64,000 bases of DNA from a virus. The stretch is from the IMG/VR virus record IMGVR_UViG_3300036790_000468, positions 62,001-126,000 of that record. One strand, given 5' to 3'. The position numbers were made by a program, and so were the translations under genes. Under the pieces are notes generated by a model. It saw only the letters and a list, made by a program, of their open reading frames with translations. It was not told the DNA's origin and did not search any database. Below are positions 23,437-61,453 of the stretch, one piece after another; position 1 is the first letter of the stretch, and each line of letters opens with the position of its first letter.

Positions 23437-24981
23437 TTACCCGCCTCCCTTACTCGCGGCCAGCTCGCTCATGTACTCGTCGGTCTCGGCGAAGTGGACG
23501 TAGAACCTCGCGAGCGCCTGGGTGGTCGCATCGACCCGGTCGTCGTGGCTCGCCCGCGGGAAACTGCAGAGCTCTTCGACGTAGTCGCCGATCCAGGGCG
23601 CCAGGGAGGGGTGCGGGAGGTGGACGTTGCGGGCCTCGAACAGCGGGCTCACGGCGTGCGCGCGGGCGAGCTTGGAGTCGACCGGGGTGATCGGGATCAG
23701 GCCCGGCACTTTGCGCCTCAATGTATTGATGACGGCGGGGCCGTTGGCCTTGTCCTCTACGAGGATCGCGATGGACTGCGGCCACTTGTGGTGCAGGGCC
23801 TCTGTGGCCTGGCAGGTGCTGGTGAAATCCAGTCGGTCATAGACCTGGTCGAGCAGGAAGCAGTCCGCGCCCCGCCGGCCCCACACCTGGCCGCACACGA
23901 AGTCCGAGCCATCGGTGTCCTTGAACGCCATGTCCCAGCTGGTGATCACCGAGTCCACGCCGAGAGCGCGCCAGGCTCCGTCCGGCATCTGGACGCAGCG
24001 CGGCTCCTCGTAGAACACGATGTGCTCGCGCTTGAAGACCGCGCCCTCACCCGGCGAGGGGCGGCCCTGATACAGCGCGTTGAAACCGCGCGCGCCGACC
24101 TGCCGGCGGATGCGCTCCCACATCCGGCGCGTGCGCAGCCGCGCGGAGCGCAGCCAGGTCCCCGGTTCCCGGCCGAGCGGGTCGGACTCGCCTTCCTCCG
24201 GCTTGTGGTCGGCCAGGGCCGGGATGTTGATGTGCGTCCACTCCTCGGCGGATTCCGAGGCGAGCAGTCGGCCGGCGAGATCATCCTCATGCCAGCGGGT
24301 CATCAGCAGCACGACGGAGCTGCCGGGGCCCAGCCGGGTCGCGCCGACCTCGGTCCACCAGGCCCACGCGTTCTCGCGGTAGGTCTCCGAGTCGGCCTCG
24401 GCGCGGCCCTTGACCGGGTCGTCGATGATCATGACATCGACGGGGCGCCCCGTCAGGGCGCCGCCGATGCCGACGGTGACGACGCCGCCCTGGTGGCCTT
24501 CGAGCTGCCACTCCTGCGCCGCGGAGGTGTCGCGCCGCACGGACAGGCCGAGCTCGGGGTGGCTCCAGATGTCGTTGCGGATCGCCCGGCCCCAGCGGCG
24601 CGCGATCCCCGCCTCGTAGGAGACGATCGCGATCCGCAACTCCGGATTGTGCAACAACAGCCACAGGGGAAAGGACCTTGATACTCTCTGGCTCTTGCCC
24701 TCCTGCGGGGGCATCGTCCAGATCAGCCGGTCCAGCGATCCGTCGTGGACCTTCCGGAGGTGCTCGTCGAGCAGTTCGAGCGCCTCGGTCTCGATCATCC
24801 GGAAATCGAGCCGCTTGGCCAGCGCGCCCGGGGTGGGCAGCGCGGCCGCCGAGCGCCGGCGCGCCTCGTCGCGCTCCCGGGCCCGCAGGACCCGGACGGC
24901 CTCGAGCTTCTGGAGGCGGCTAGGCTTCGGGCTCGCCGTAGGCCGCGACGAGGCGGGCGTACTCAGCGTCGAGGGCGTCAT
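23437..24981 (-). CDS. Terminase large subunit
   Basis: 514 residues. ATPase: Walker A PPQEGKS at 91-97, Walker B MIIDD at 184-188, followed by a coupling motif around LLMTRWHEDDLA. Nuclease: SWDMAFKDTDGSDF (first Asp near 345), LLDQVYDRLDF, EDKANGPAV and a final HDDRVDATTQALA. It powers DNA packaging and cuts the concatemer. The start overlaps the small subunit by 62 bases; a later in-frame start is possible because the first about 50 residues are low complexity. Confidence 0.93.
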   Translation of the reverse strand: MTPSTLSTPASSRPTASPKPSRLQKLEAVRVLRARERDEARRRSAAALPTPGALAKRLDFRMIETEALELLDEHLRKVHDGSLDRLIWTMPPQEGKSQRVSRSFPLWLLLHNPELRIAIVSYEAGIARRWGRAIRNDIWSHPELGLSVRRDTSAAQEWQLEGHQGGVVTVGIGGALTGRPVDVMIIDDPVKGRAEADSETYRENAWAWWTEVGATRLGPGSSVVLLMTRWHEDDLAGRLLASESAEEWTHINIPALADHKPEEGESDPLGREPGTWLRSARLRTRRMWERIRRQVGARGFNALYQGRPSPGEGAVFKREHIVFYEEPRCVQMPDGAWRALGVDSVITSWDMAFKDTDGSDFVCGQVWGRRGADCFLLDQVYDRLDFTSTCQATEALHHKWPQSIAILVEDKANGPAVINTLRRKVPGLIPITPVDSKLARAHAVSPLFEARNVHLPHPSLAPWIGDYVEELCSFPRASHDDRVDATTQALARFYVHFAETDEYMSELAASKGGG

Positions 24982-29556: not shown

Positions 29557-29964
29557 CTGGCGGTCCGCGGTGTGGGTCGGCTGCTCAGCCCGGATCGGTG
29601 CGAGGGTGGCGGTCGGGCTGATCTCGTGCTCCTGGTGGCGCGGGTCGTCGTGTGCTGTACGGGGGTTCCGGCGCGCTGCAGTGTTCCCTCACGAAACCGC
29701 GCCGGAAGAATGGGGGTGAGCGGTGCCCGGGCCGGTGTCGTTGGCTTTTCCGGGCCCAGTGGGCCCTCCACCTCGGCCGACCCGGGCAGCGGGGCGTTCA
29801 ATGCGTCGGCGGTTTCGCGTGATCGCTGCCGTCGGCGTCTCTGTGCGGTCCGCCCAAGGCCGCGGCGAGATCTATATCAGAAGTTTGAGGATGCCACGCA
29901 CATTTCAGCAGCCAGCGGGCCTGCAGCGCGGGTGCTGCTCCCGGAGCGTGGCCGCACCGTCCCG
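29557..29964. other. Region without a confident gene; possible frameshifted 5' part of the preceding gene
   Basis: On the minus strand a reading frame from ATG at 29801 (MNAPLPGSAEVEGPLGPEKP) is coding-like down to about 29655. From about 29650 the coding-like signal moves to the frame of the 29353-29556 gene. A one-base change around the repeat ACGACGACC would join them into one protein of about 148 residues. The part from 29802 to the first tRNA holds nothing I can name; an AT-rich patch near 29870-29885 could be a promoter. Confidence 0.35.
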
Positions 29965-30037
29965 TAGCCGCTGATGGGTTCGAACCACCGACAGCCTCTT
30001 TGTAGGAGAGGAGCTCTGCCAGCTGAGCTAAGCGGCC
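29965..30037 (-). tRNA. tRNA-Val (anticodon UAC), with C at position 33
   Basis: A full 73-base cloverleaf without CCA: acceptor GGCCGCT pairing with AGCGGCT (one G-U), D stem GCTC/GAGC, anticodon stem CCTCT/AGAGG, T arm GGTGG-TTCGAAC-CCATC. The anticodon loop reads CCTACAA, giving anticodon UAC but C instead of the near-universal U33. All other parts look intact. Confidence 0.85.
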
Positions 30038-30065
30038 GTGCCGACCGGTTCCGTCGGCCGGCGGG

Positions 30066-30138
30066 TGGACCAGCGCGGATTCGAACCGCGAACCTGTTCT
30101 CTGCCGAAGAGCCGCTCTGCCGTTGGAGCTACAGGCCC
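30066..30138 (-). tRNA. tRNA, probable anticodon GGC (Ala) with C at position 33
   Basis: 73 bases, no CCA encoded. Acceptor GGGCCTG/CTGGTCC has one U-U mismatch; D stem GCTC/GAGC; T arm CGCGG-TTCGAAT-CCGCG is perfect. The anticodon stem GCTCT/AGAAC has a C-A mismatch and the loop is TCGGCAG, so standard spacing gives GGC with C33. A shifted stem would give CGG, so the identity is uncertain. Confidence 0.7.
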
Positions 30139-30143
30139 AGGAG

Positions 30144-30366: not shown

Positions 30367-30636
30367 TCAAGTGGGACCCTCCGTCCGCCGTGGCCTGCCG
30401 AGGCGGCGCCGGATCCTGTCCCAGTTCTCGAGCGCGGCGCTGTGGCGTTCGGACTCGACGTTGACCACCTCGAACTCGTTGAACACCGCGCGTCCGGAGA
30501 CCGGGTCGATATAGCGAGGGAGCCGGCCGGCGGCGATCCAGCGTTCGATGGTGCGCCGGCTGCGGCCGGTGATCTCGATGACTTCGGCGAGCGTGAGGGG
30601 CTTGAACAGCGGGTCGTCGGCCGGCGGCGGGATCAC
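30367..30636 (-). CDS. MerR/excisionase-type helix-turn-helix protein
   Basis: 89 residues from GTG at 30636, overlapping the protease stop (GTGA). LTLAEVIEITGRSRRTIERW followed by AAGRLPRYIDPVSGRAVFNE is a winged HTH of the HTH_17/excisionase class. A charged helix with ENWDRIRRRLGRPRR follows. It could be an excisionase or a transcription regulator; no integrase is in the window to decide. Last gene of its operon, closed by the terminator at 30268. Confidence 0.75.
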   Translation of the reverse strand: MIPPPADDPLFKPLTLAEVIEITGRSRRTIERWIAAGRLPRYIDPVSGRAVFNEFEVVNVESERHSAALENWDRIRRRLGRPRRTEGPT

Positions 30637-33346: not shown

Positions 33347-33407
33347 GTCAACTCGGTTGACAGGCTCATCGTGCCCGGGCACACTCGGACTGTCAACTCA
33401 GTTGACA
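33347..33407. promoter_or_regulatory. Two palindromic operators overlapping divergent -35 elements
   Basis: GTCAACTCGGTTGAC (33347-33361) and TGTCAACTCAGTTGACA (33391-33407) share half site GTCAAC. Their centres are 45 bases apart, about four helical turns. Each ends in TTGAC(A), so the plus-strand -35 hexamers (33357-33362, 33402-33407) and a minus-strand -35 (33396-33391) are embedded in the operators. A bound protein would block both divergent operons. Confidence 0.7.
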
Positions 33408-33432
33408 CTCCGAGCCAGCCTGAGGAGCAGCG

Positions 33433-33864
33433 ATGGACCCCCTCGTCTTCCCGGCCCCGCAGGACCGCCTGCGCCGTGGCGCTAACCGGCGCACGCCGAC
33501 CGGCCGCGCTGCTCGCGTCCGCGTCGGCCGGCACGACTCGGTGGCCCGATACCGCGCGGTGCTCGAAGCGACCGCGCGCCGGGCTAACGGAATCAGGGCC
33601 ACCGCGGCCGCGTACCTGACCGGCCTCGGCGCCGACGCGGAGTTCATCCGCCGCTTTGCCTCCCAGTTCGGCAAGGCCGCCACCCGCATCCACCGCGACC
33701 GCCTGCACGCCGAGCCCGCGCTCGACGGGCTCGCGATCATCAGCGCCCGTGGACGCCACGGCGCGCGCCACCCGCGGCTGATCGAGGTCAACACCTATCC
33801 CGTGGCGATTTTGGCGCACGCCGCACGCTCCTATCCGCGCACCGCCACACTCATCGGAGCCTGA
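33433..33864 (+). CDS. Hypothetical basic protein, first gene of the envelope operon
   Basis: 143 residues, about one fifth Arg. ATG at 33433 has GAGGAG upstream. Helical stretches (RYRAVLEATARRANGIRATA; AAAYLTGLGADAEFIRRFAS) and a C-terminal beta part (LIEVNTYPVAILAHAARSY). Looks like a nucleic-acid-binding or structural protein, but no family is recognised. Placed right after the palindromic operators, so probably the regulated first gene. Confidence 0.6.
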   Translation: MDPLVFPAPQDRLRRGANRRTPTGRAARVRVGRHDSVARYRAVLEATARRANGIRATAAAYLTGLGADAEFIRRFASQFGKAATRIHRDRLHAEPALDGLAIISARGRHGARHPRLIEVNTYPVAILAHAARSYPRTATLIGA

Positions 33865-33875
33865 CGGGCCGTCAC
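33861..33875 (+). repeat. Copy 1 of a 15 bp palindromic intergenic repeat
   Basis: CTGACGGGCCGTCAC, containing the stop of the 33433 gene. The same 15 bases recur at 54581. The core TGACGG-G-CCGTCA is a near-perfect inverted repeat followed in both places by a second GC-rich arm. Confidence 0.5.
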
Positions 33876-33915
33876 CGCCCGTCACGCCCCGCAACCTCCC
33901 GAGAGGAGCACGGAA

Positions 33916-34440
33916 TTGCCCGCACCATCGTCCAAGGCGGCCACCGTCCTGCTGCCCGTGCGCATCGAGCCGCCCGGCAACGACCAGGTGCTGACCTCGT
34001 TCGGATTCCGCTTCGAGGCGCTGGATCCGGGCAACCGCCGCGAGCGCGCCGCAGTGCTCCCGGCCGGCTGGTCCCAGCGCCCCGGCAGCGTCCCGTCCGT
34101 CACGCGCCTGATCGACGAGCAGGAGCGCCCCCGGATCATGGTGGCCGAGGGCGGCGAGGGCGGCGCGTCGTTCATGCGGCTCGTCCCGCTCGCCCTGTAC
34201 GTCGCCGAGTGCTCCCGCCACGCGCGCGACGTGGTGACCGACCCCGACTGGGCGAGCGTCCCCGCGGTCGAACTGGCGGCCTCCGAACACCTCGAGCGCC
34301 TCATCCAGGCCGAGGACCTGTGGCGGCTGCGGATCGAGAAGGGCCACGCCACGGAGCTCGCGCGCCGGCGCATTGCTGCGATCGCCGCGCAGCAGCAGTG
34401 GTGCCGCGGCACCCTGATCAAGCTGGAGGCCGTCTCATGA
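33916..34440 (+). CDS. Hypothetical protein
   Basis: 174 residues from TTG at 33916 with GAGAGGAG upstream. N-terminal strands (ATVLLPVRIEPPGNDQVL; FGFRFEALDP), a middle part with PRIMVAEGGEGGASF and a helical C-terminus (HLERLIQAEDLWRLRIEKGH; ARRRIAAIAAQQQW). No family recognised. Its stop overlaps the ATG of the next gene (ATGA), linking it to the membrane-protein operon. Confidence 0.6.
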   Translation: MPAPSSKAATVLLPVRIEPPGNDQVLTSFGFRFEALDPGNRRERAAVLPAGWSQRPGSVPSVTRLIDEQERPRIMVAEGGEGGASFMRLVPLALYVAECSRHARDVVTDPDWASVPAVELAASEHLERLIQAEDLWRLRIEKGHATELARRRIAAIAAQQQWCRGTLIKLEAVS

Positions 34441-34970
34441 GCGGGCCGAGGCCTCACACTCCGACCCGGATGTGCCCGCACCGCTGGTGCAGGCGGCTGC
34501 ACACCGCAATGACGTTCGTCTCCCTCATCGCCATTGTCGTGATCATCACGCACACCACTACGGCATCGAACGCCGGCGCGGACGGCCGCTTCTACATCTA
34601 CACCGTGATCGTCGGCGTGATCGGCTACTGCGGGAGCCGGGCCGTGACCGGCACGACGGTGGCCCAGATGATGCGGGCCGACCTGAACGACAAGGCGCAC
34701 GGGATCGCGGTCTTGGTGCGGCCGGTGTGGGCTGCGATCGCGGCCTGCATGGACGGCCTGGTTGTCGCGGGCAGCTCGGCTTTCGTCGCTGCAGTGCTCG
34801 CGCAGTCCTCGGCGCCGCTCCTGCCGGCTGACGCGTCCATCTCGTTCGGCACGCTGGCGGCCGGGCTCAGCCTGCCGCTGTTCCGCGACTTCGCGCACAA
34901 GATGGCGACCAAGCCGGTCAAGCCGAAGCGTGTGCTCGTTCCGGCCGCTCAGAGCTTCGGAGGGGCCTGA
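34437..34970 (+). CDS. Multi-pass membrane protein
   Basis: 177 residues with three to four hydrophobic segments: about 23-43 (AMTFVSLIAIVVIITH), 52-72 (FYIYTVIVGVIGYCGSR), 88-122 (AVLVRPVWAAIAACMDGLVV) and a weaker one near 140. The basic tail (KPVKPKRVL) should be cytoplasmic. Not recognised. Overlaps both neighbours by one to four bases, so it is part of the same polycistron. Confidence 0.65.
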   Translation: MSGPRPHTPTRMCPHRWCRRLHTAMTFVSLIAIVVIITHTTTASNAGADGRFYIYTVIVGVIGYCGSRAVTGTTVAQMMRADLNDKAHGIAVLVRPVWAAIAACMDGLVVAGSSAFVAAVLAQSSAPLLPADASISFGTLAAGLSLPLFRDFAHKMATKPVKPKRVLVPAAQSFGGA

Positions 34971-35083
34971 TGGTGCGACGTCGCGACTACGTGCACACGA
35001 CCCCGGTGTGGTCACGCAACTGGTTCAAGTGGCTCATGTACTACGCGTTCTTCATCGCAGTGATCGTCGTGGTGACGCGCTAG
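34970..35083 (+). CDS. Micro-membrane protein (37 residues)
   Basis: ATG shares its A with the previous TGA (TGATG). The peptide has a basic start (MVRRRDYVHTTPVWSR), an aromatic belt (NWFKWLMYYAF) and one TM segment (FIAVIVVVTR). It is read in tight coupling with the larger membrane protein, which suggests a subunit or regulator of it. Confidence 0.6.
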   Translation: MVRRRDYVHTTPVWSRNWFKWLMYYAFFIAVIVVVTR

Positions 35084-35160
35084 CTGGCTTCTCGCGGCGC
35101 GCCGCAGTGCCCCCACGGCGCCTCATTTATCAATCCCCTTACGCAAGGAGTCGGTTCCGC

Positions 35161-35592
35161 ATGTCGATTTTCAACCCGGACGGTGACGTGCGGCCCGGTC
35201 GCGTCGTGACCTACGGGTGCCTGAGCATCCTCCTGATCATCGCGCTGCCGATCACTCTCTGGGTGGCCGGGGTGTTCACCTCCGGGGTGCGCGGCACCGG
35301 CAACGTCATCCAGCAGCGCAACTCGAGCACGAACCGGGTCGCACAGAACACCACGCTCAACAACGACTCCCAGACGGTCATCGCCGACCACCAGAAGATC
35401 ACGCAGATGTCGGCGATCCCCACCGGCCAGCTGACCCCGCAGGACCGGATGGACCTGCAGGGCGCCGAGCAGGTGTGCGACAGCGACGTCGCGGCCTACA
35501 ACGCCGCGGCCGCGAACATCCTCGCCCAGGGCCAGCTGCCCGACGCCCTGCCCCAGTCCTACGACGCTTCCACAGAATGCGAGCCCTCCTGA
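35161..35592 (+). CDS. Membrane-anchored extracytoplasmic protein
   Basis: 143 residues, ATG with AAGGAG upstream. TM segment about 18-41 (YGCLSILLIIALPITLWVAG), then an Asn/Gln/Ser-rich outer region (QQRNSSTNRVAQNTTLNN; VIADHQKITQMSAIPTGQL) and two Cys near the C-terminus (QVCDSD, TECEPS) that could form a disulphide. Not recognised. Its stop shares a base with the ATG of the lipoprotein gene, so they are likely partners at the cell surface. Confidence 0.65.
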   Translation: MSIFNPDGDVRPGRVVTYGCLSILLIIALPITLWVAGVFTSGVRGTGNVIQQRNSSTNRVAQNTTLNNDSQTVIADHQKITQMSAIPTGQLTPQDRMDLQGAEQVCDSDVAAYNAAAANILAQGQLPDALPQSYDASTECEPS

Positions 35593-36215
35593 TGACCAGC
35601 AAGACCCTGTCCCACAAGCGACGCGTGCGCGTGAGCGCCCTGCTCGCCGGCATCGCGCTCACGGTGGGCCTCACGGCCACCGCGTGCACCTCCTCCTCGA
35701 CGGCGACCAGCGCCCAGGGCGCGGTGGACACCTCCGACAGTCAGGCGCAGACCACGTTCAACGAGTTCAGCAGCGCAGTGCCCTACCCGTACACGCAGTG
35801 CTCGGGCAGCAAGTGCACGGCGGCGCCGCCCTCGGACCCGCTCGAGCGGCTCAACCTCGCGGCGCGGCTCAAGGAGTACAACTCGGCCGGCGACACCAAC
35901 TACGTCTACGTCTTCGGCTTCAACGGCCAGGTCCTCGGCTACTACGTGATCAAGGGGAAGGTCTCCTCGACCGGCTCGGAGATGACCTCCACCCAGCAGG
36001 TGACCAACTGCGGCACGGCGAACAACGGCGACAACGGCGGCTGCAGCGTGACCGACGCGATCGGCGACGACGGCTCCTACGGCCCGGAGGAGGGCGGCAG
36101 CTTCGGGGTGTTCTTCTTCACCTCGACCGGCACGCTGGTGGAGACCGACCAGCCGTTCATGGTCTCCTCGACCCCGATCGCCCTGTACTCGAGTGTCCCG
36201 CAGTTGGACAAGTAG
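35592..36215 (+). CDS. Putative secreted lipoprotein
   Basis: 207 residues. Basic n-region (SHKRRVRVS), hydrophobic h-region and lipobox-like ATAC with Cys32, so export and lipid anchoring are likely. The mature part is Ser/Thr-rich (SSSTATSAQG), then a folded domain with two Cys pairs (QCSGSKC; NCGTANNGDNGGC), a strand pair NYVYVFGFNGQVLGYYVIKG and a closing SFGVFFFTSTGTLVETDQPF. Resembles small actinobacterial surface lipoproteins of unknown role. It precedes the glycosyltransferase gene by 11 bases. Confidence 0.7.
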   Translation: MTSKTLSHKRRVRVSALLAGIALTVGLTATACTSSSTATSAQGAVDTSDSQAQTTFNEFSSAVPYPYTQCSGSKCTAAPPSDPLERLNLAARLKEYNSAGDTNYVYVFGFNGQVLGYYVIKGKVSSTGSEMTSTQQVTNCGTANNGDNGGCSVTDAIGDDGSYGPEEGGSFGVFFFTSTGTLVETDQPFMVSSTPIALYSSVPQLDK

Positions 36216-36226
36216 GTGTCGCGTCG

Positions 36227-37798
36227 ATGTCCCAGACGCTGACGGGCCCGGGCGCGCGCCGTGCCGCCCGGGCCTTTCCGTGGCCGCTGCTGGTGATCCT
36301 CGCCGTGCAGGTCGCGCTCGCCATACCGCTGATCACCTCTTCGGAGATCTTCTCCGACGAGGGCCTCTACCTCTACGCCGGGCACCAGATGCTCGCGCAC
36401 TGGGTCCACGGGGTGCCGGTGCAGGACTTCCAGACCTACTTCTCCGGCTCCCCGGCCATCTACCCGCCGCTCGCCGCGCTCGCCGACCACTTCGGCGGCT
36501 TGGCCGGCGCCCGGACGCTCTCGCTGGTCTTCATCCTCGCCACCACCGTCCTGCTCTACGCCACCACCGTGCGGCTGTTCAGCCGCAGCGCCGGGTACCT
36601 CGCCGCGCTGCTGTTCGCCTCGCTCGGGGGCACCCAGTTCCTCGCGGCGCTCGCGACGTACGACACGGTGTCGCTGTTCCTGCTCGCCGCCGCCGTTTAC
36701 CTGGCCGTGAGCTCCGGGTACCGCGAGGGGCTGTCCGCCTCCATGCGCGCGTTCGTCGCCTCCCCGCTTCTGGTCGCCCTGGCCAACGCGGCGAAGTACG
36801 CCTCGGCGCTGTGGGACCCGATCGTGATCGCGGTGATCGCGGTCGCCCCGCTCCTCGGCGGCGAGCGCGCCCGGCCCGCGTGGCGGCATGCCGCGCGGTA
36901 CACCGCGGTGCTCGCCACAGCCCTCGGCGCGGGCCTGCTGATCGGAAACGCCAAGTACTGGCGGGGGATCATGGACACGACCGTGGCCCGGACCCCGCAG
37001 CAGATCGGGGTGCCCACCCCGGCCGGGATTGTGCTGCACCTCGTGTGGGCGTGGATCGGCGTCGTGGTCGTCCTCGCCGCGGTGGGGCTGCTGCTCGTGC
37101 TCGCCCGCCCGCACCCGCACCGCGCCCCCATGGGAGTGGTCGCGGCCGCGCTGCTGGCCGGGTGCGTGCTCGCGCCCCTGAACCAGGCCCGCATCGAAAC
37201 CAGCGTCAGCCTGCAGAAACACGTGGTGTTCGGGGCCTGGTTCGGGTGCATCCTGGCCGGGCACGCCATCGCCTCCCTCGCCACCTCCCCGCTGCCGGCC
37301 CGCGCGCGCCGGGTGCGCCTGGCGGTGCTCGCCGCGGTGTTCGCGGCAGCGGCCGCCACGGTGCCCGCCGCCTATGCGACGCAGGTCCCGCAGTGGCATC
37401 AGTGGTCCGCCGAGAACCCGGCGTTCATCACCGCCCTGAAGCGGTACACGGTGCCGGGCGCCGGCCGGTACCTGATCGAGGGCCACATGGACATCACCGC
37501 CTACTACGTCGGGGACGTCACGAGCCTGCAATGGAAAGAGGCCGGCGGCGACGGCTACGACTACACCGACCCCGCCACCGGCCAGAGCGTCACCGGCGAC
37601 GCCGCGTATCAGCAGGCAGTCGCGGCCCGCGTCTTCACCTTGATCATCCTGGACGGCGGCGAGCCGACCGACACGGTCATCGAAGCCGCGATCTCCGCAG
37701 ACGCCGACTACCACGTCATCGCCCACCTGCCGCCCTCCAGCACGAACTCGTCCGCGGCCTACACCGTGTGGGCTCTGAACCCCGGGGGGAACCCGTGA
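36227..37798 (+). CDS. GT39/GT83-like membrane glycosyltransferase
   Basis: 523 residues with about ten TM helices. Asp44-Glu45 in SDEGLYLYAGH is the first-loop acidic motif of the GT-C fold (PMT/ArnT group), which transfers a sugar from a polyprenyl phosphate to an acceptor outside the membrane. Further loops carry FQTYFSGSPAIYPPLAALAD and KYASALWDPI. The C-terminal about 110 residues lie outside the membrane (GRYLIEGHMDITAYYVGDV). Acceptor could be protein or a surface glycan. Overlaps the next micro-gene (GTGA). Confidence 0.78.
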   Translation: MSQTLTGPGARRAARAFPWPLLVILAVQVALAIPLITSSEIFSDEGLYLYAGHQMLAHWVHGVPVQDFQTYFSGSPAIYPPLAALADHFGGLAGARTLSLVFILATTVLLYATTVRLFSRSAGYLAALLFASLGGTQFLAALATYDTVSLFLLAAAVYLAVSSGYREGLSASMRAFVASPLLVALANAAKYASALWDPIVIAVIAVAPLLGGERARPAWRHAARYTAVLATALGAGLLIGNAKYWRGIMDTTVARTPQQIGVPTPAGIVLHLVWAWIGVVVVLAAVGLLLVLARPHPHRAPMGVVAAALLAGCVLAPLNQARIETSVSLQKHVVFGAWFGCILAGHAIASLATSPLPARARRVRLAVLAAVFAAAAATVPAAYATQVPQWHQWSAENPAFITALKRYTVPGAGRYLIEGHMDITAYYVGDVTSLQWKEAGGDGYDYTDPATGQSVTGDAAYQQAVAARVFTLIILDGGEPTDTVIEAAISADADYHVIAHLPPSSTNSSAAYTVWALNPGGNP

Positions 37799-37914
37799 AC
37801 TCGCACCAGATCCTGGACGTCTCGGTCGCGGCGGGCAGCAGCGCGCTGATCCTCGCCGCCTGGGCGCTCATCCGCCTCACCTTCCGCCGCGGGCGCGGCC
37901 TGGAGGAGGCGTGA
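37795..37914 (+). CDS. Micro-membrane protein (39 residues) between the two glycosyltransferases
   Basis: GTG at 37795 overlaps the previous stop, and its own TGA overlaps the GTG of the synthase. Single TM helix (SSALILAAWALIRLTF) with a basic, then acidic tail (RRGRGLEEA). Tight coupling suggests a small accessory subunit of the synthase. Confidence 0.6.
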   Translation: MNSHQILDVSVAAGSSALILAAWALIRLTFRRGRGLEEA

Positions 37915-39929
37915 ACGCCCCGAGCTCCCGGGCGGCGCTGTGCTCGGACGGCTACGACATCCCGGCCGCGCACCTGCGCACCCGCCACTACACGCTGCTC
38001 GCCAGCCTCTGCCTCGGCGCCCTGACCGTGTGGCTCGGCTACCGCGCGGCCCAGGACACCGGCGCGATCACCGGCCACGACCACGCCGCGCTGGTGTGGA
38101 CCGTGCTGATGCTCGCGCTCTCGCACCAGACCGTGATCGCGTGGTTCGACCGGCCCTACACCGTCACCGACGAGCAGGCCCGCGAGCTCGCCCGGCTCTT
38201 CGTCGAGGTCTCCATCCCGGTCTACAACGAGTCGGTCGAGATCGTGGACCGCACGCTCTACGCCCTGACGGTCCAGACCAGACCGCCGCAGCGTGTCGTG
38301 CTGGTCGACGACGGCTCCGATGTCGACTACAGCGTCCTGCGCGTGTTCTGGGTGGCGCGGTTCCACGAGCTCGGGATCGAGCTGGTCTGGCACCGGCAGG
38401 CCAACGCCGGCAAGCGCCACGCCCAGGCGGTCGCGTTCCGGGCCGCGGGCGACGGGGTGATGGTCACGCTCGATTCCGACACCGCTCTGACCGCGACAGC
38501 GCTGGAAGAGATCCTCAAGCCCTTCGTCGACGCGCGCGTGTGGTCGGTCGCCGGGGTGGAGCTCGCCGCGAATCAGACCGCGAACATCCTCACCCGGATC
38601 AACGGGCTGCGGCAGGTCTCCTGGCAGATGGTGCAGTGCGCCGCGCTCAACCGCGTCGGCGGCATCATGGTCAACCGGGGTACGTTCGCCGCGTACCGCG
38701 CGCAGCTCGTGCGCGAGACCGTGGACGCCTACCTCGCCGAGACCTTCTGCGGCCGGCCGGTGAAGTACTCCGACGACAGCCTGCTCACGCTCTACGCGCT
38801 CGGGCGCGGGCGCGCCGTCCAGCAGTCCACCGCGTTCCAGCTCAGCGAGTACCCCGACCGGCTCTCCCACGCCCTGCGCCAGTGGGTGCGCTGGATGCGC
38901 GGCTCCACCATCCGCTCGATCTGGCGCGCCCGCTACCTGCGCCCCGGCTCCTACGCCTGGTGGATCAACCTGATCAACTGGTGGCAACTGGTGGTCTCCA
39001 CCGGTGCCTACGCGTACGTGTTCCTCGTGCTGCCGGTCGAAGGGCGCACCGCCCTCTCAGCGGTCGCGGCCGCGGTCGCCGCGTCCTACCTCGCCAACGC
39101 CCGCACCCTGCTCGTCGCCCGCACCGATCAGGACGCGCTCGCGCAGCTCGACACCTGGCTCCTCTCCCCGCTCGCCTGGGCCTGGTCGCTGCTGGTGCTG
39201 CGCCCGGTCCGGTTCTACGCGACCCTGACCTGCGCGAACAACGGATGGGGCACCAGGTCCGCGGTGGAGGTCGGCGAGCAGACCGGCCACAGCGCCCCCG
39301 CAGCGCCACCCCTGGGCGCACCCGCGCCGGTGTTCGCCACCGTCGCGCGACGCCCCGAGACCACGCTCGAGCTCGAGCGCGTCCCCGCGGTCTGGATCCC
39401 CGAACCCGCAGAGCCGCAACTCCCCGCAGGCACGGCGGTCATCCCGCGGGTTCCGGGCCGGCGCGCCCGCGCGGGCGGGCACCGCGGTGCGCGGCGCACG
39501 GTGTCGGGCGCGTCGCTCGCCGCTCTCGCCTTCATGGTCGCGGCCCTCGCCGGCGGCCTGGTGCTCGCGGTCACCGACCCCAGCTCCCCGAGCCTTGCGC
39601 CCCCGGCCGCGGCGAGCTCGCACGGGGCCGCGGCCGCGCCCTCGGTGTCCTCGGCCACGCTCGCCCCGGCACCGATGCCCGGCGTGGTGCGCGTGGCAGC
39701 ACCGCTGGCCACCAGCTCGCCGCCGACGGCGCCCGCCGCATCGACGCATCCGGGCGCCCCCGCCACCACCGCTGCAGCCCCGTCGACGCCGCCGGCGCGC
39801 ACCTCCGCGCCCGCGGCCAGCTCGAGCACCTCCGCGGCGCCGAGTCCCAGTGCGAGCAGCGCGCCGGCCAGCTCCCCGGCACCGTCCCCGTCCCTCCCGT
39901 CCGCAAGCCCGTCAGGAACAGCCTCATGA
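37911..39929 (+). CDS. Processive GT2 polysaccharide synthase (hyaluronan/cellulose synthase-like) with Ser/Pro-rich C-terminus
   Basis: 672 residues from GTG. Two TM helices (about 27-45, 58-76), then a cytosolic GT2 domain (about 95-330): SIPVYNES, LVDDGSD (Asp133-134), DSD at 188-190, YSDDS (Asp288-289) and QWVRW at 324-328, the full D,D,D,QxxRW set of processive synthases. C-terminal TM helices (about 345-435) form the secretion channel. Residues about 450-672 add a Pro/Ala region, one more TM (about 533-556) and a Ser/Pro/Ala tail. It would polymerise a nucleotide sugar and export the chain; the sugar is not known. Confidence 0.85.
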   Translation: MNAPSSRAALCSDGYDIPAAHLRTRHYTLLASLCLGALTVWLGYRAAQDTGAITGHDHAALVWTVLMLALSHQTVIAWFDRPYTVTDEQARELARLFVEVSIPVYNESVEIVDRTLYALTVQTRPPQRVVLVDDGSDVDYSVLRVFWVARFHELGIELVWHRQANAGKRHAQAVAFRAAGDGVMVTLDSDTALTATALEEILKPFVDARVWSVAGVELAANQTANILTRINGLRQVSWQMVQCAALNRVGGIMVNRGTFAAYRAQLVRETVDAYLAETFCGRPVKYSDDSLLTLYALGRGRAVQQSTAFQLSEYPDRLSHALRQWVRWMRGSTIRSIWRARYLRPGSYAWWINLINWWQLVVSTGAYAYVFLVLPVEGRTALSAVAAAVAASYLANARTLLVARTDQDALAQLDTWLLSPLAWAWSLLVLRPVRFYATLTCANNGWGTRSAVEVGEQTGHSAPAAPPLGAPAPVFATVARRPETTLELERVPAVWIPEPAEPQLPAGTAVIPRVPGRRARAGGHRGARRTVSGASLAALAFMVAALAGGLVLAVTDPSSPSLAPPAAASSHGAAAAPSVSSATLAPAPMPGVVRVAAPLATSSPPTAPAASTHPGAPATTAAAPSTPPARTSAPAASSSTSAAPSPSASSAPASSPAPSPSLPSASPSGTAS

Positions 39930-40951
39930 GAACCCGCGCCACCTCCCTCGTCGCCGCCATCGCCATCGTGGCCCTGCTCGCCATCGGGGCCGGAATCGCC
40001 GTCACCACGGGAGAACCCGCCGCGCCTGGGAACAGCCCTGCGGCGCCGAGCTCGAGCGCAGCGCCGAACACGGCGCCCGCCTCGCCGACGCCGCCACCGG
40101 TGATCCCGGTGACCGCACTGACCCATCCCGCCGGCAAGCTCGTCGGGGTGGCGCTGCCGGGCAGCTCCTCGGGGCTCGCCGCGTTCGCGGCCGCGTCGGG
40201 CACGAGCCCGGATGTGAACGAGACGTTCGTGAACTGGGGAGCGTTGTTCCCGACCGGGGACGCCACTACGGCGCTTGGCCAGGGCGCGTACACGCTGGTG
40301 TCCTGGCAGTCCGAGAACGAGCCGCTCGCCCGGATCGCCTCCGGGGCTGATGACGCGTACATCACGGCGTTCGCCCGGTCCGTCGCCGCGTTCCGCGACG
40401 CGGTGTACATCGACTTCGACCACGAGTTCAACGGCGACTGGTACCCGTGGGGCACCCAGGCCGTCTCCCCAGGCCAGTTCACGGCCGCGTGGCGGCACCT
40501 GCACCAGCTCTTCGACCAGGCCGGCGCGGCCAACGCGGTGTGGGTGTGGTCCCCGAACGTGGTGAACCCGGTCCCGGGCGTCGAGCTGGCCGCGTATTGG
40601 CCGGGCGCGGCCGAGGTCGATGTCGTCGGGATCGTCGGGTACTACACCGGCCAGCTCGGCGAATCCACCTACGCGGGCTTGTTCACCCGGACCGAGGGCC
40701 TCGTCGACGCATTCGCGCACAAGCCGTACCTGATCACCGAAGCAGGCGCGCAACAAGGGCCTGATAAGGCTGCGTGGGTCGCGGACCTGCTCGCCGGAGT
40801 GAAGAACGACCCCGGCATGCTCGGGGTGATCTACTTCGATGAGGGGAGCGCCCAGCACAAGCGCGCCGACTGGACCCTGGAAGACAGCGGCCCGGCCCTG
40901 GCAGCGTGGCGGGCCGGCGTGCGGGCGATGCCGCTCGCCCCGGCCGCATGA
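39926..40951 (+). CDS. Secreted GH26-like glycoside hydrolase
   Basis: 341 residues. Signal anchor at 5-27 (TSLVAAIAIVALLAIGAG), a Pro/Ser/Ala linker (30-62), then a TIM-barrel domain. YIDFDHEFNGDWYPWG gives the acid/base Glu167 and PYLITEAGA the nucleophile Glu272, as in GH26 mannanases and related beta-glycanases. VWVWSPNVVNPVPG and a GYYTG loop are also typical. Overlaps the synthase stop (ATGA). A hydrolase coupled to a synthase, as in cellulose operons, suggests trimming or release of the polymer made by the neighbour. Confidence 0.82.
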   Translation: MRTRATSLVAAIAIVALLAIGAGIAVTTGEPAAPGNSPAAPSSSAAPNTAPASPTPPPVIPVTALTHPAGKLVGVALPGSSSGLAAFAAASGTSPDVNETFVNWGALFPTGDATTALGQGAYTLVSWQSENEPLARIASGADDAYITAFARSVAAFRDAVYIDFDHEFNGDWYPWGTQAVSPGQFTAAWRHLHQLFDQAGAANAVWVWSPNVVNPVPGVELAAYWPGAAEVDVVGIVGYYTGQLGESTYAGLFTRTEGLVDAFAHKPYLITEAGAQQGPDKAAWVADLLAGVKNDPGMLGVIYFDEGSAQHKRADWTLEDSGPALAAWRAGVRAMPLAPAA

Positions 40952-41400
40952 GCCGCCCGCGCCGCTCGCGCGCCCACTGGCTGCTGCCGCTGTGCGCCCT
41001 GGGCGTCGCCGCCGTCATCGCCGGCGCTCACTCGCACGGGCTGGCCGAGGCGGTGTTCTACGGCCTCGCGATGGTGTGCAGCGGCGCCGTGTTCGGCGTG
41101 CTCGACGACCCGCCGGTGCCCTGGCACCGTCCCCAGCCGATGAGCACCCTGACGGTGTCGTCCACCACGGGGTTCCGCCGCGGCCAGCTCGTGTGCATCG
41201 GGGGCACCGAGGTGATGCTCATCGTCGGCGTCGGCCAGACGCAGCTCGCCGTGGTGCGCCCCACCCGCTGGCAGCTCGCCCGGATCCGCTGGCGCCGACG
41301 TATCGCGCGCTGGGCCAGCGCGCCGCTGCGCCGGTGCGCCACCCTCTGGTTTCTGCTGACCGAGGGCCGTGAGGACGATCCGGAAGACCGCTGGCTGTGA
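40948..41400 (+). CDS. Membrane protein with phage-type beta module
   Basis: 150 residues. Two TM helices (about 9-27, 32-51), then a small beta domain (STLTVSSTTGFRRGQLVCIG; TEVMLIVGVGQTQLAVV) like modules found in phage structural proteins, then a basic helical tail. Overlaps the hydrolase stop (ATGA). Last gene of the envelope operon. Confidence 0.65.
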   Translation: MSRPRRSRAHWLLPLCALGVAAVIAGAHSHGLAEAVFYGLAMVCSGAVFGVLDDPPVPWHRPQPMSTLTVSSTTGFRRGQLVCIGGTEVMLIVGVGQTQLAVVRPTRWQLARIRWRRRIARWASAPLRRCATLWFLLTEGREDDPEDRWL

Positions 41401-42484: not shown

Positions 42485-43810
42485 TTACGCGGCGGTTGGT
42501 GTGCTGGTCAGCGCGGCGTGGTCGAATAGGTCGAGTGTGGTCTGAGCTGCGTGGACGCCGGTAATTCGGGCTCTGCGGAACGCGATGAGCATGTCGGCGA
42601 CCGAGACGGTGGTCTTCTTCCGGTACCAGGGGGCGTTGCTCCGGCGGGCGGCGACATCGCCGGAGGCGTCACCGGTCTTGGCGTACCACAGGACGAGGAT
42701 CGTCAGGCAGCACATGGTGAACGGGACGGTGCGCCGGACTGCTGCGGGCAGTCGGCTGGCGGCGTCTCCCGCGCCGAGCAGTTCCTTGCAGTCCTTAATC
42801 GTCTGCTCTTCGGACCACCGGTCGGAGTATCTGGCGGCGATGGTTTCCGGCGCGGCTGCGAGGTCGGTGGTGACCAGGGCAATGTCGTAGGGCTTCGTGG
42901 AGTCCAGGTCGCGGATCAGCACCACCCGGACCGGGGTGCGGTGCATGCTGCCCCACCACAGGCAGTCCACTTCGGCCAGCCACACGGTATCGATGACGCC
43001 GTAGCGGGTCACGGTGGTCTTGGTGAATCTCGCGGTGGCGGCGAGATCAGCCGGGGTGCCCAGCCGTTTGCCCTTCAACGCCGGGCGTCCACGGCGTCCG
43101 GTCGGCGGTGGCGGACCGTCGTAGAGGACTGCGTTGGAGGCGAGCCGGGAGGTGAACGTGACGTTGCCCGGCAGGTCGCGCCAGGCCGGGCCGCGGTACA
43201 GGGCGTCGGCCACCACGTGGATCTTCCGCTCGGGGAACGCCCGCGCGAGCAGGTTCACGATCTGGCGGGCCGCTTCGGTCTTCGAGCAGGTCGCCTCGGG
43301 GTTCGGCCGTTTCTTGGAGTTCGGGACGTGCAGCCGGAACAGCACCGGCAGGAACACCGCCCGGCACAGGAACGGCACGTGCACGACGATCCCGGCGACC
43401 ACGAAGCAGTTCCCGCGGCCGATCCCGTCGCGGCCTTTCGCCGAGCCGTCGTGCTGCCAGGCCGCGCCGTACACCTTCTTGCCGAACCGGTGGAACAAGG
43501 TGTCGTCCACTGCCACCGTCAACGCAGCTCCCCTCGGAGCGAACGCGGCCACGACCGCGTGGGCCAGCAGCAGCCCCAGGTTGTCGGGATCCCATGCCGC
43601 GTAGGCAAAGAACCAGTGCGCCCTCGACCAGTGAAGGCGCCCGGCGAGCCCGGCCGCGCTCCACATCCCGGTCACCGTCCGCGAACCGGTCGCCCCGAGC
43701 ACGCCGGTGACCAGCGCGGTGAACGTGAGATACGACGGTGCGCCGAACGCGCCACGGCACGCCGCCAACACTTCGGCCAGCCCGGCCGGTACCGTCAGAA
43801 ACGGAAGCAT
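42485..43810 (-). CDS. IS701-family DDE transposase
   Basis: 441 residues, full length for the family. First catalytic Asp region AVDDTLFHRFGKKVYGAAW, second Asp in HVVADALYRGPAW, and the Glu signature YSDRWSEEQTIKDCKELLG. N-terminal LTFTALVTGVLGATGSRTVT and WSRAHWFF are also usual. No frameshift or internal stop, so it may still be active. Confidence 0.9.
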   Translation of the reverse strand: MLPFLTVPAGLAEVLAACRGAFGAPSYLTFTALVTGVLGATGSRTVTGMWSAAGLAGRLHWSRAHWFFAYAAWDPDNLGLLLAHAVVAAFAPRGAALTVAVDDTLFHRFGKKVYGAAWQHDGSAKGRDGIGRGNCFVVAGIVVHVPFLCRAVFLPVLFRLHVPNSKKRPNPEATCSKTEAARQIVNLLARAFPERKIHVVADALYRGPAWRDLPGNVTFTSRLASNAVLYDGPPPPTGRRGRPALKGKRLGTPADLAATARFTKTTVTRYGVIDTVWLAEVDCLWWGSMHRTPVRVVLIRDLDSTKPYDIALVTTDLAAAPETIAARYSDRWSEEQTIKDCKELLGAGDAASRLPAAVRRTVPFTMCCLTILVLWYAKTGDASGDVAARRSNAPWYRKKTTVSVADMLIAFRRARITGVHAAQTTLDLFDHAALTSTPTAA

Positions 43811-60123: not shown

Positions 60124-60556
60124 CGGCCACCGGCCTCGGTGGCGGCAGTGGGGCGCTCTTCGCTCCAGGGCAGCGCAACGGTGATCTCGACGAGGTTCAG
60201 GGCCCGGTTTGTCTCGACGTTCCGCATTGCCCGGCCGCAGAACTGGCCGGCGAACCTGACGACCTGGCCGTCTGCGGCGTCCGTCAGCGTCACCTCGGCG
60301 CGGACGGTGCCGGTCAGGTTGGGCATGAGAAAGAGGTCTTTGAACAGCTGCTGGGTCAGTTCAGAGACCGGTTCGGGCTGCCCGCGTTCGCCTTCGAGTT
60401 CGGCGACGCGCGCGGTGAGCCGGTCGCGGTCGGCGAGCAGCGTCTTCGCCACGCGGTAGCCGACGCCAGCGGGGTTCCATTCGGGAGGCGGTCGGCGACG
60501 CGGTCCGCTGCTGCGCGGATCTCGGCGATCCGCTGCCCGCTGATCGGCGCGGTCAC
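60120..60556 (-). pseudogene. Hypothetical protein gene with single-base frameshift
   Basis: GTG at 60556 (GTGA overlap) starts a convincing N-terminus (VTAPISGQRIAEIRAAADRV). At about 60480, within CCTCCCGAATGG, the coding signal moves -1 to PEWNPAGVGYRVAKTLLADR and LTARVAELEGERGQPEP, ending at 60120. Adding one C would give RLPEWNPAGV in one frame. So either a true mutation, a sequencing error or slippage. The intact protein would be a coiled-coil plus a beta domain (TGTVRAEVTLTDAADGQVV; LNLVEITVALPW). Confidence 0.6.
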
Positions 60557-60951
60557 GAGGCGCCACCAGCGGCGGCAAGGCGCGCGATCCGCTGGTACTT
60601 CTCGGGAGTGGTGTGGCCATCCCAGATGGTGGAGTCGTCGCGTTCGACGTGCTCGAACAGGCTCAGGTCGTTCTCGCCGACGTGCCACGAGCACTGGCCG
60701 GTGGGGAGCTCGACGTAGACGACGACCCAGCCGGGCTCGCTGGCGTCGCCGTAGTTCCAGGTCGACGGGTAGAGCGCGGCGAGCAGCGCGACGAGGTGGG
60801 CGCGCTCGCGGTAGGCGCCGTTCGTGGCGTTGATCTGCTGGCCGAGCTCGTCATAGGCGGTCTCCCACTCCCCGTACCAGTATTCGATCTGCTGGTCGGG
60901 GGTCTTGATGTCGTGGGGTTCGAGGGCGAGTCGGTCGGCGTGGTCGGTCAC
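60553..60951 (-). CDS. Hypothetical protein (conserved actinophage type)
   Basis: 132 residues from GTG at 60951 with AGGAA. IEYWYGEWETAYDELGQQIN, RAHLVALLAALYPSTW, PGWVVVYVELPTGQCSWHVG, and a WDGHTTPEKYQRI ending. The strand pattern VVYVELPTGQxSWH and WDGHxTxEKYxR recurs in many Streptomyces phage proteins. Function unknown. Confidence 0.7.
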   Translation of the reverse strand: MTDHADRLALEPHDIKTPDQQIEYWYGEWETAYDELGQQINATNGAYRERAHLVALLAALYPSTWNYGDASEPGWVVVYVELPTGQCSWHVGENDLSLFEHVERDDSTIWDGHTTPEKYQRIARLAAAGGAS

Positions 60952-61202
60952 GGCTGATTCCTGTCGGTGTCGGGGGTGGTTCGCGGGTCGCTGACGAGCC
61001 AGTATCCGCGCAGCCCTCGGTGGTTGTTGTGGCTGATCTTCAGGCCGAAGACGACCTCGGTGGCGGGATCGTCGGCGCAGGTGACGACGGTGCAGTAGGC
61101 GTGCCGGGTGTCCGTGCGCTCGATGCGGATGGTGCGGCCCTTGTTGCCGGTGTGGGTGTCGGCCCAGATCTGGCCGCGGCGGACGCCGTCGGGGGCGTTC
61201 AT
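60948..61202 (-). CDS. Hypothetical small beta protein
   Basis: 84 residues from ATG at 61202. VRRGQIWADTHTGNKGRTIR, TDTRHAYCTVVTCADD, and GLKISHNNHRGLRGYWLVS give a small barrel like those in actinophage early proteins. Overlaps both neighbours by four bases. Confidence 0.65.
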   Translation of the reverse strand: MNAPDGVRRGQIWADTHTGNKGRTIRIERTDTRHAYCTVVTCADDPATEVVFGLKISHNNHRGLRGYWLVSDPRTTPDTDRNQP

Positions 61203-61453
61203 GCCCGGTTCCCGCCGTTGGTGTCGTGCTCGGCCAGCCATGCGCGCGCTTCGGCGGTGCCGCACTTGCCGGGCTCGCTGCCAGCGGTGAAGTGCGCCTG
61301 GCAGTCGCCGCGGTAGAACACACATTCGTCGTCCTGGTGGTCGACGAGGCGGCGCAGGTGCGTGAACGCCTCGAGGAGGTCGCGTGCTGCCTTGCGGGCC
61401 GCGGTCTCGAGGCGCAGGGCGATGCAGGCGCCCTCGCGGGGCTGAGGGGTCAC
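61199..61453 (-). CDS. Hypothetical small protein with Cys residues
   Basis: 84 residues from GTG at 61453. Helical first half (CIALRLETAARKAARDLLEA; HLRRLVDHQDDECVF) and second half with CQAHFTAGSEPGKCGTAEA. Possible zinc site. Not recognised. Confidence 0.6.
   Translation of the reverse strand: MTPQPREGACIALRLETAARKAARDLLEAFTHLRRLVDHQDDECVFYRGDCQAHFTAGSEPGKCGTAEARAWLAEHDTNGGNRA

Follow-up and report, generated by a model that had tools for sequence, protein, structure and literature searches.

The 64,000-nucleotide stretch of viral DNA analysed here (the window) corresponds to bases 62001-126000 of the 127.5-kb IMG/VR record IMGVR_UViG_3300036790_000468 and carries, on its (+) strand, a phage-borne block of nine co-directional genes (34437-41400). 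Four of these genes (36227-40951) form a core that encodes, in order, a putative GT-C-type membrane glycosyltransferase, a 39-amino-acid membrane protein (the micro-protein), a processive-type polysaccharide synthase of glycosyltransferase family 2 (GT2) and a predicted endo-glycanase of glycoside hydrolase family 26 (GH26). This module recurs in independent phages, the catalytic residues of its synthase and hydrolase are intact, and in several relatives it lies close to an integrase. We consider the core to be most probably a polysaccharide operon through which a temperate actinobacteriophage brings about lysogenic conversion, a reading to which we assign a probability of roughly 0.6.

The synthase gene (37911-39929, (+) strand) encodes a GT2 domain (residues 1-455) followed by a proline-, serine- and alanine-rich tail with an extra transmembrane (TM) segment. 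The motif set of class I hyaluronan synthases (HAS), DDG, DxD, QxxRW and WGTR, is present in full, with DDGS at residue 133, DSD at 188, SDDS at 287 and QWVRW at 324. The key residues are D133, D134, D188, D190, D288, D289 and those of QxxRW, and the residues for catalysis are invariant or nearly so across 49 aligned sequences. The protein matches Pfam family PF13641 above the cut-off (3.8e-13) and shows no match to PilZ in the Pfam search. Its best NCBIfam match is NodC (TIGR04242, 2.6e-26), where a score of 92.5 bits does not reach the curated cut-off of 550; PgaC/IcaA (TIGR03937) gave 35 bits, under the curated cut-off of 422, and BcsA (TIGR03030) 22 bits against 699. Among PDB sequences the only phmmer matches are hyaluronan synthases, listed as Chlorella virus HAS (6e-12). 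An AlphaFold2 (AF2) model of the synthase (pLDDT 90.5, pTM 0.90) has a HAS-like fold: ranks 1-13 in a Foldseek search are all HAS (2e-18 to 1e-17, TM-score 0.54-0.67), followed by cellulose and chitin synthases. By its family scores and modelled fold the GT2 is thus HAS/NodC-like rather than cellulose-synthase-like, and the same scores and fold led us to reject a cellulose-synthase identity.

An earlier note, made from the sequence alone, had compared the block both with viral hyaluronan synthases and with cellulose-type operons. The first analogy is supported by the structure match. From the second, the pairing of a synthase with a cognate hydrolase, which is the logic of bacterial cellulose (bcs) operons, can be retained, whereas the synthase itself is nearer HAS, and BcsB, PilZ and GH8 were not found in the window operon. 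Chlorella virus HAS (CvHAS), with class I HAS, is the best structural and sequence match and is likewise a virus-encoded membrane polysaccharide synthase; however, identity is 16-20%, and here a phage gene is coupled to those for GH26, the GT-C protein and the micro-protein. The resemblance to NodC is similarly partial, since the window operon contains no nod genes and has a membrane-associated GH26 as partner.

The hydrolase gene (39926-40951, (+) strand) encodes a CtLic26A-like protein that is predicted to be membrane-anchored or secreted, with an N-terminal TM segment or signal and a Pro/Ser linker. It matches PF02156 (1.1e-10, 41.8 bits, gathering score 20.2), and the nearest solved structure is that of the lichenase CtLic26A, listed as endoglucanase H (phmmer 1.3e-27). 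The motifs HEFNG (166) and ITEAG (270) contain the acid/base and nucleophile glutamates, E167 and E272, which align with those of CtLic26A and are invariant in our alignment (A4); these positions were aligned in 11 GH26 homologues. The first gene of the core (36227-37798, (+) strand) encodes a protein with about nine hydrophobic stretches that may be a PMT/ArnT-like, polyprenyl-phosphate-sugar-dependent transferase. It carries SDEGLY (residue 43) in its first external loop, and its AF2 model, although weak (pLDDT 57), has AglB, oligosaccharyltransferase and ArnT as best fold matches. Homologues occupy the equivalent module position at loci L016 (50% identity), L137 (55%), L072 (33%) and L049 (38%), and no match was found among annotated phages.

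Between these genes lies that of the micro-protein (37795-37914, (+) strand), which overlaps its neighbours by 4 bp on both sides and encodes a single TM segment with a basic C-terminal tail, IRLTFRRGRG. A short TM protein with a basic FRRG-type tail is encoded directly upstream of GT2 in most loci of this GT2 family. In an automatic test, equivalents of the micro-protein abut 78 of 107 GT2 genes, compared with 22 of 821 control genes, and in Actinomyces the TM-FKRG segment forms the N-terminus of GT2 itself. The pairing of the micro-protein with this GT2 is thus conserved in both Actinobacteria and Saccharibacteria, which is an addition to the earlier note. Relatives of the micro-protein are usually free-standing sortase-type signals (LAxTG-TM-FRRG), often with only about 6-10 residues before the LAxTG motif; L[AP]xTG occurs in 64 of the 78 GT2-adjacent micro-proteins and in none of the 22 adjacent to controls. 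The window protein lacks LAxTG and still belongs to this series (NHKQVIDVLVAGGSF...FGFRRGK in phage contig L137, SHQILDVSVAAGSS...LTFRRGR in the window). It has no match to NF058583, the NCBIfam family of LAXTG small proteins, whose motif is absent from it, and its relatives match that family weakly, below the cut-off. We also observed free-standing, near-pure sortase signals of 50-70 amino acids (LAxTG, TM, FRRG tail) coupled to HAS/NodC-like GT2 genes at L008, L010, L011 and L013-L126, for example upstream of GT2 at L008:8717-8887 and L010:8801-8968. A class E sortase gene stands beside two Pseudonocardia plasmid loci, with a homologue in the Actinomycetospora locus L048. LAxTG is missing from all nine GH26-linked micro-proteins and from 5 of 63 others (Fisher 2e-8, without phylogeny). 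However, phylogeny leaves only four independent pairs (p 0.125), and the mutual exclusion of GH26 and LAxTG is therefore a lead, not a result.

The nine genes are arranged much as the earlier note had described, and its motifs in GT2, the GT-C protein (SDEGLY) and GH26 are all in place. Overlaps of 1 or 4 bp occur at six of the eight internal junctions, and the first gene (34437-34970) additionally overlaps its upstream neighbour (33916-34440) by 4 bp. A 1-bp overlap (TGATG) joins 34437-34970 to 34970-35083, and a 77-bp gap separates the end of the latter at 35083 from 35161. Another 1-bp overlap connects 35161-35592 with 35592-36215, and an 11-bp gap (36215 to 36227) precedes the GT-C gene. 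All junctions among 36227-37798, 37795-37914, 37911-39929, 39926-40951 and 40948-41400 are 4-bp overlaps. The 77-bp gap contains a terminator-like stem (35107-35121), and therefore the nine genes may not form one transcript. The unit supported by synteny is the four-gene core, 36227-40951. That the whole block is one ancient unit was rejected, as synteny elsewhere is limited to the core. A comparison of ten operon proteins with PHROGs gave zero matches.

Two further phage contigs, which come from different metagenomes, have the four core genes in unchanged order: L016 (202 kb), a tailed phage that encodes a terminase, portal, tape measure and integrase, and L137 (120 kb), in which a terminase is encoded. 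A second GT2 family accompanies the GT-C and GH26 genes in L138-L141 and GH26 in L145. An alignment search of viral GH26 loci found GT2 directly upstream in 12 of 22, including all ten best matches, and six of these 12 also contain the GT-C gene. Counting the window, L043 and GX15bay, close adjacency of GT2 and GH26 is found in about 15 virus records, at least ten of which have a detected terminase, and the two genes usually overlap by 4 bp. The linkage to GH26 needs at least four changes on the GT2 tree. Scans of viral and genome collections with a single GT2 sequence found nothing, and an alignment query found the relatives. At L043:1330-2623 a phage GT2 gene is split into two frames by a frameshift or sequencing error, with an intact GH26 gene downstream.

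The module also has a cellular counterpart. On a Streptomyces chromosome (L072) it lies in full between truA and rplM/rpsI (flanks recognised by eye) and is accompanied by a UDP-glucose dehydrogenase gene, and the set is also found in a Trebonia metagenome-assembled genome (L049). A second locus of the Streptomyces genome with the chromosomal module (L166; G037:C19:58000-71000) encodes GH26, GT2, a 37-amino-acid TM protein, and acyltransferase-3-like and GH16-like proteins, together with two look-alikes, recognised by eye, of family 8 polysaccharide lyases (PL8).

Among the phage relatives, the module begins next to a divergent integrase gene, or a few kb away from one at most, in L139, L140, L141, L155 and L157. 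Repressor and/or excisionase-type helix-turn-helix (HTH) genes are near the module in L139-L141, and an XRE repressor homologue precedes it in L153. An integrase-proximal position is the classical site of lysogenic-conversion genes. Together with the recurrence of the module, this placement suggests that the operon probably gives a new coat to cells harbouring the dormant phage.

Within the window, the block is flanked on the left by packaging, tail and lysis genes (terminase, portal, endolysin) and on the right by phage replication, kinase and excisionase-like genes. The operon strand is opposite to that of the late genes, and the terminase large subunit of the operon-bearing phage (phrog_38, 1.8e-106) is encoded at 23437-24798 on the (-) strand. 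The record contains a second, different terminase (phrog_2) at contig 33.4-34.6 kb, so that large subunits are encoded at contig 33378-34640 and 85485-86903, the latter being the window gene. It also encodes one serine and one tyrosine integrase and an antirepressor, and genes resembling those of actinomycete integrative and conjugative elements (AICEs), for FtsK/SpoIIIE and regulators, sit between its two phage modules. Because of the two terminases, the two integrases and the intervening AICE-like genes, the record is a composite rather than a single viral genome. The most fitting reading is that of two adjacent prophages or of one composite element, and the second phage is the one that carries the operon.

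We infer that the operon is expressed in the lysogen, where GT2, with the micro-protein as its putative membrane subunit, would polymerise a beta-linked glycan from cytosolic UDP-sugars and extrude it through the host membrane. The GT-C protein may use a lipid-linked donor to attach a sugar on the outer side of the membrane, or it may make an anchor, and the membrane-anchored GH26 would cut the new polymer for length control or release. The envelope of the lysogen would be altered, most likely to the benefit of the prophage, with receptors masked from other phages and hyphal or spore surfaces changed. Several observations weigh against this interpretation. No integrase adjoins the operon in the window, where the nearest gene of this kind is an excisionase-like HTH gene (30367-30636, (-) strand; phrog_66, 2.6e-7) about 4 kb upstream, and the argument for lysogeny therefore rests on the relatives. 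UDP-glucose dehydrogenase, which is common but not obligatory with class I HAS, is absent from the window operon, although it is found near about 24 other GT2 loci. The known substrates of GH26 enzymes (mannan, beta-1,3-xylan and mixed-linkage glucan) do not fit a hyaluronan-type product. Lastly, the GT-C protein matches PF13231 (PMT_2) at 2.6e-4 and 21.7 bits, under the cut-off of 26.1.

The synthase and hydrolase could instead act during lytic infection, coating the cell against co-infecting phages or weakening or cutting a surface polymer at release. The window operon lies mid-genome between late and early genes, the module is near lysis genes in L029 and L155, and chlorella viruses, for which coating of the infected cell has been suggested, provide a structural precedent. 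We nevertheless regard a lytic role as unlikely, given the integrase- or repressor-adjacent placement in L139-L141, L155 and L157 and the orientation of the operon opposite to the late genes of the window. Less probable again is an origin of the operon from the host chromosome or an integrative element, with its DNA brought in through mis-assembly or carried as a neutral passenger. The composite nature of the record, the GC content of the module (0.732 against 0.700) and the frequency of the GT2 and micro-protein pair on actinobacterial chromosomes and plasmids would accord with such an origin. However, the operon is enclosed by the packaging genes and the replication genes of a single phage, two further phage contigs, from separate metagenomes, share its gene order, and the catalytic residues, conserved in phage homologues, are under constraint. 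Host contamination, including the assembly chimera that the earlier note had considered, is judged unlikely because the module recurs in other phages.

An auxiliary metabolic role, in which GH26 degrades environmental polysaccharide to feed the host and GT2 is incidental, seems marginally less probable still. Its precedent is the mangrove virus GX15bay (MK557849), which encodes a GT2, then a TM-anchored GH26 (26-bp overlap) and a second GH26. These genes were published within a set of putative carbon auxiliary metabolic genes from mangrove viruses that includes GH26 and GT2 and were read as carbon-degradation genes (PMC6460857). The GT2 of GX15bay is only 25% identical to that of the window, and neither a GT-C gene nor a micro-protein was recognised there. 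Moreover, about 15 virus records, involving two GT2 families, show GH26 following a membrane GT2, mostly with coupled starts, and the window GH26 has an N-terminal membrane segment. That GH26 repeatedly neighbours a membrane synthase in phages favours synthesis and trimming, and it speaks against taking viral GH26 genes simply for carbon-degradation genes. Decoration of the virion or of phage proteins, rather than the cell, is the least probable of these explanations: protein O-glycosyltransferases do exist among GT-C enzymes, yet the GT2 is a membrane-embedded synthase of processive type, not a soluble protein glycosyltransferase, and the hydrolase would sit outside the membrane.

Partial counterparts of the proposed lysogenic-conversion operon are known. 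Serotype-converting prophage operons of the gtrABC type change surface glycans in the lysogen and carry a GT-C enzyme near the integrase; they glucosylate existing O-antigen, whereas the window operon pairs a synthase of processive type with a glycanase. Streptomyces phage Kromp (gp78-gp79) and its relatives on actinobacterial plasmids and integrative and conjugative elements possess a micro-protein (TM-FRRG) and a GT2 that is 45% identical; there, however, the micro-protein has LAxTG, and no GH26 or GT-C gene was found. Actinomycete polysaccharide clusters with GH26 are known, as in the case of wpsE in Actinoplanes in a Wzx/Wzy setting (PMC13390465), and cell-wall polysaccharide clusters are among prophage predictions in Curtobacterium (PMC9862828). 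Our search of the open-licence literature turned up no account of either a phage synthase-hydrolase operon or the LAxTG micro-protein/GT2 pair. Related phage genes, those of GX15bay and Kromp, were already public, but in the literature searched neither set had been presented as a system.

The genes at 34437-36215 lie outside the conserved module and appear to be separate actinophage genes, so that of the nine-gene operon originally proposed only the core is upheld. The first (34437-34970, (+) strand) encodes a 177-amino-acid membrane protein with a homologue downstream of the module in L137 (34%, E 9e-14). The second (34970-35083, (+) strand) encodes a 37-amino-acid single-TM protein for which no conserved link to the module was found. 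The third (35161-35592, (+) strand), directly upstream of the lipoprotein gene, encodes a single-TM protein with a polar external domain; its homologue in L026 is beside a lipoprotein homologue, and membrane-protein genes are similarly placed in several phages. The fourth (35592-36215, (+) strand) encodes a putative lipoprotein, as previously proposed, although its lipobox is weak (ATAC); a homologue in L026 is 59% identical. The lipoprotein family is frequent, unaccompanied by GT2, in phages of Arthrobacter and Microbacterium. At L127, L128 and L129, as for 35161-36215 of the window, it is preceded in several cases by a membrane-protein gene, and at these three loci no glycan module is nearby. 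The last gene of the block (40948-41400, (+) strand), coupled to GH26 by its 4-bp overlap, encodes a 150-amino-acid protein with two TM stretches for which no relatives were found.

Further features were noted in the surrounding sequence. Genes for tRNA-Val and tRNA-Ala (29964-30139) adjoin the excisionase-like gene; they may belong to the phage or indicate an attachment site. Just downstream of the operon, a 441-amino-acid gene product (42485-43810) appears by eye to be transposase-like; it has no PHROG match, and a simple search gave no terminal inverted repeat. The two phage modules share an 876-bp segment at 99% identity (window 60511-61383; L004:15954-16829, contig 35954-36829), which points to recent exchange between them. 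Both ends of the record (L003:1-400 and L007:2285-2504) fall within one short-period tandem repeat (CACCTGGCCGT...), with 99% identity between its first 133 bases and its last 133; this could reflect a circular element or a break of the assembly at the repeat.

A broader and decidedly speculative proposal, which we consider doubtful as a whole, is that GT2 and the micro-protein of Actinobacteria and Saccharibacteria together make up a polysaccharide synthase of a hitherto undescribed two-component type, whose polymer would have one of two fates. Sortase E would covalently tie the free-standing LAxTG-TM-FRRG micro-protein, and with it the nascent polysaccharide, to peptidoglycan. Where LAxTG has been lost, as in the phage operon, a dedicated GH26 would cut the polymer instead, and phages would have taken this version for lysogenic conversion. 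Independently of this proposal, our findings point to a widespread, uncharacterised pair of a synthase and a micro-protein with a sortase-type signal.

Phages are known to change the surface sugars of their hosts by attaching groups to polymers that are already there. The strategy differs in the case of a portable operon that seems both to synthesise a new polymer and to trim it, and the fact that this operon recurs with two distinct GT2 families suggests that it is under selection. Where soil actinobacteria show superinfection immunity or surface change, the operon would offer an explanation that can be tested.

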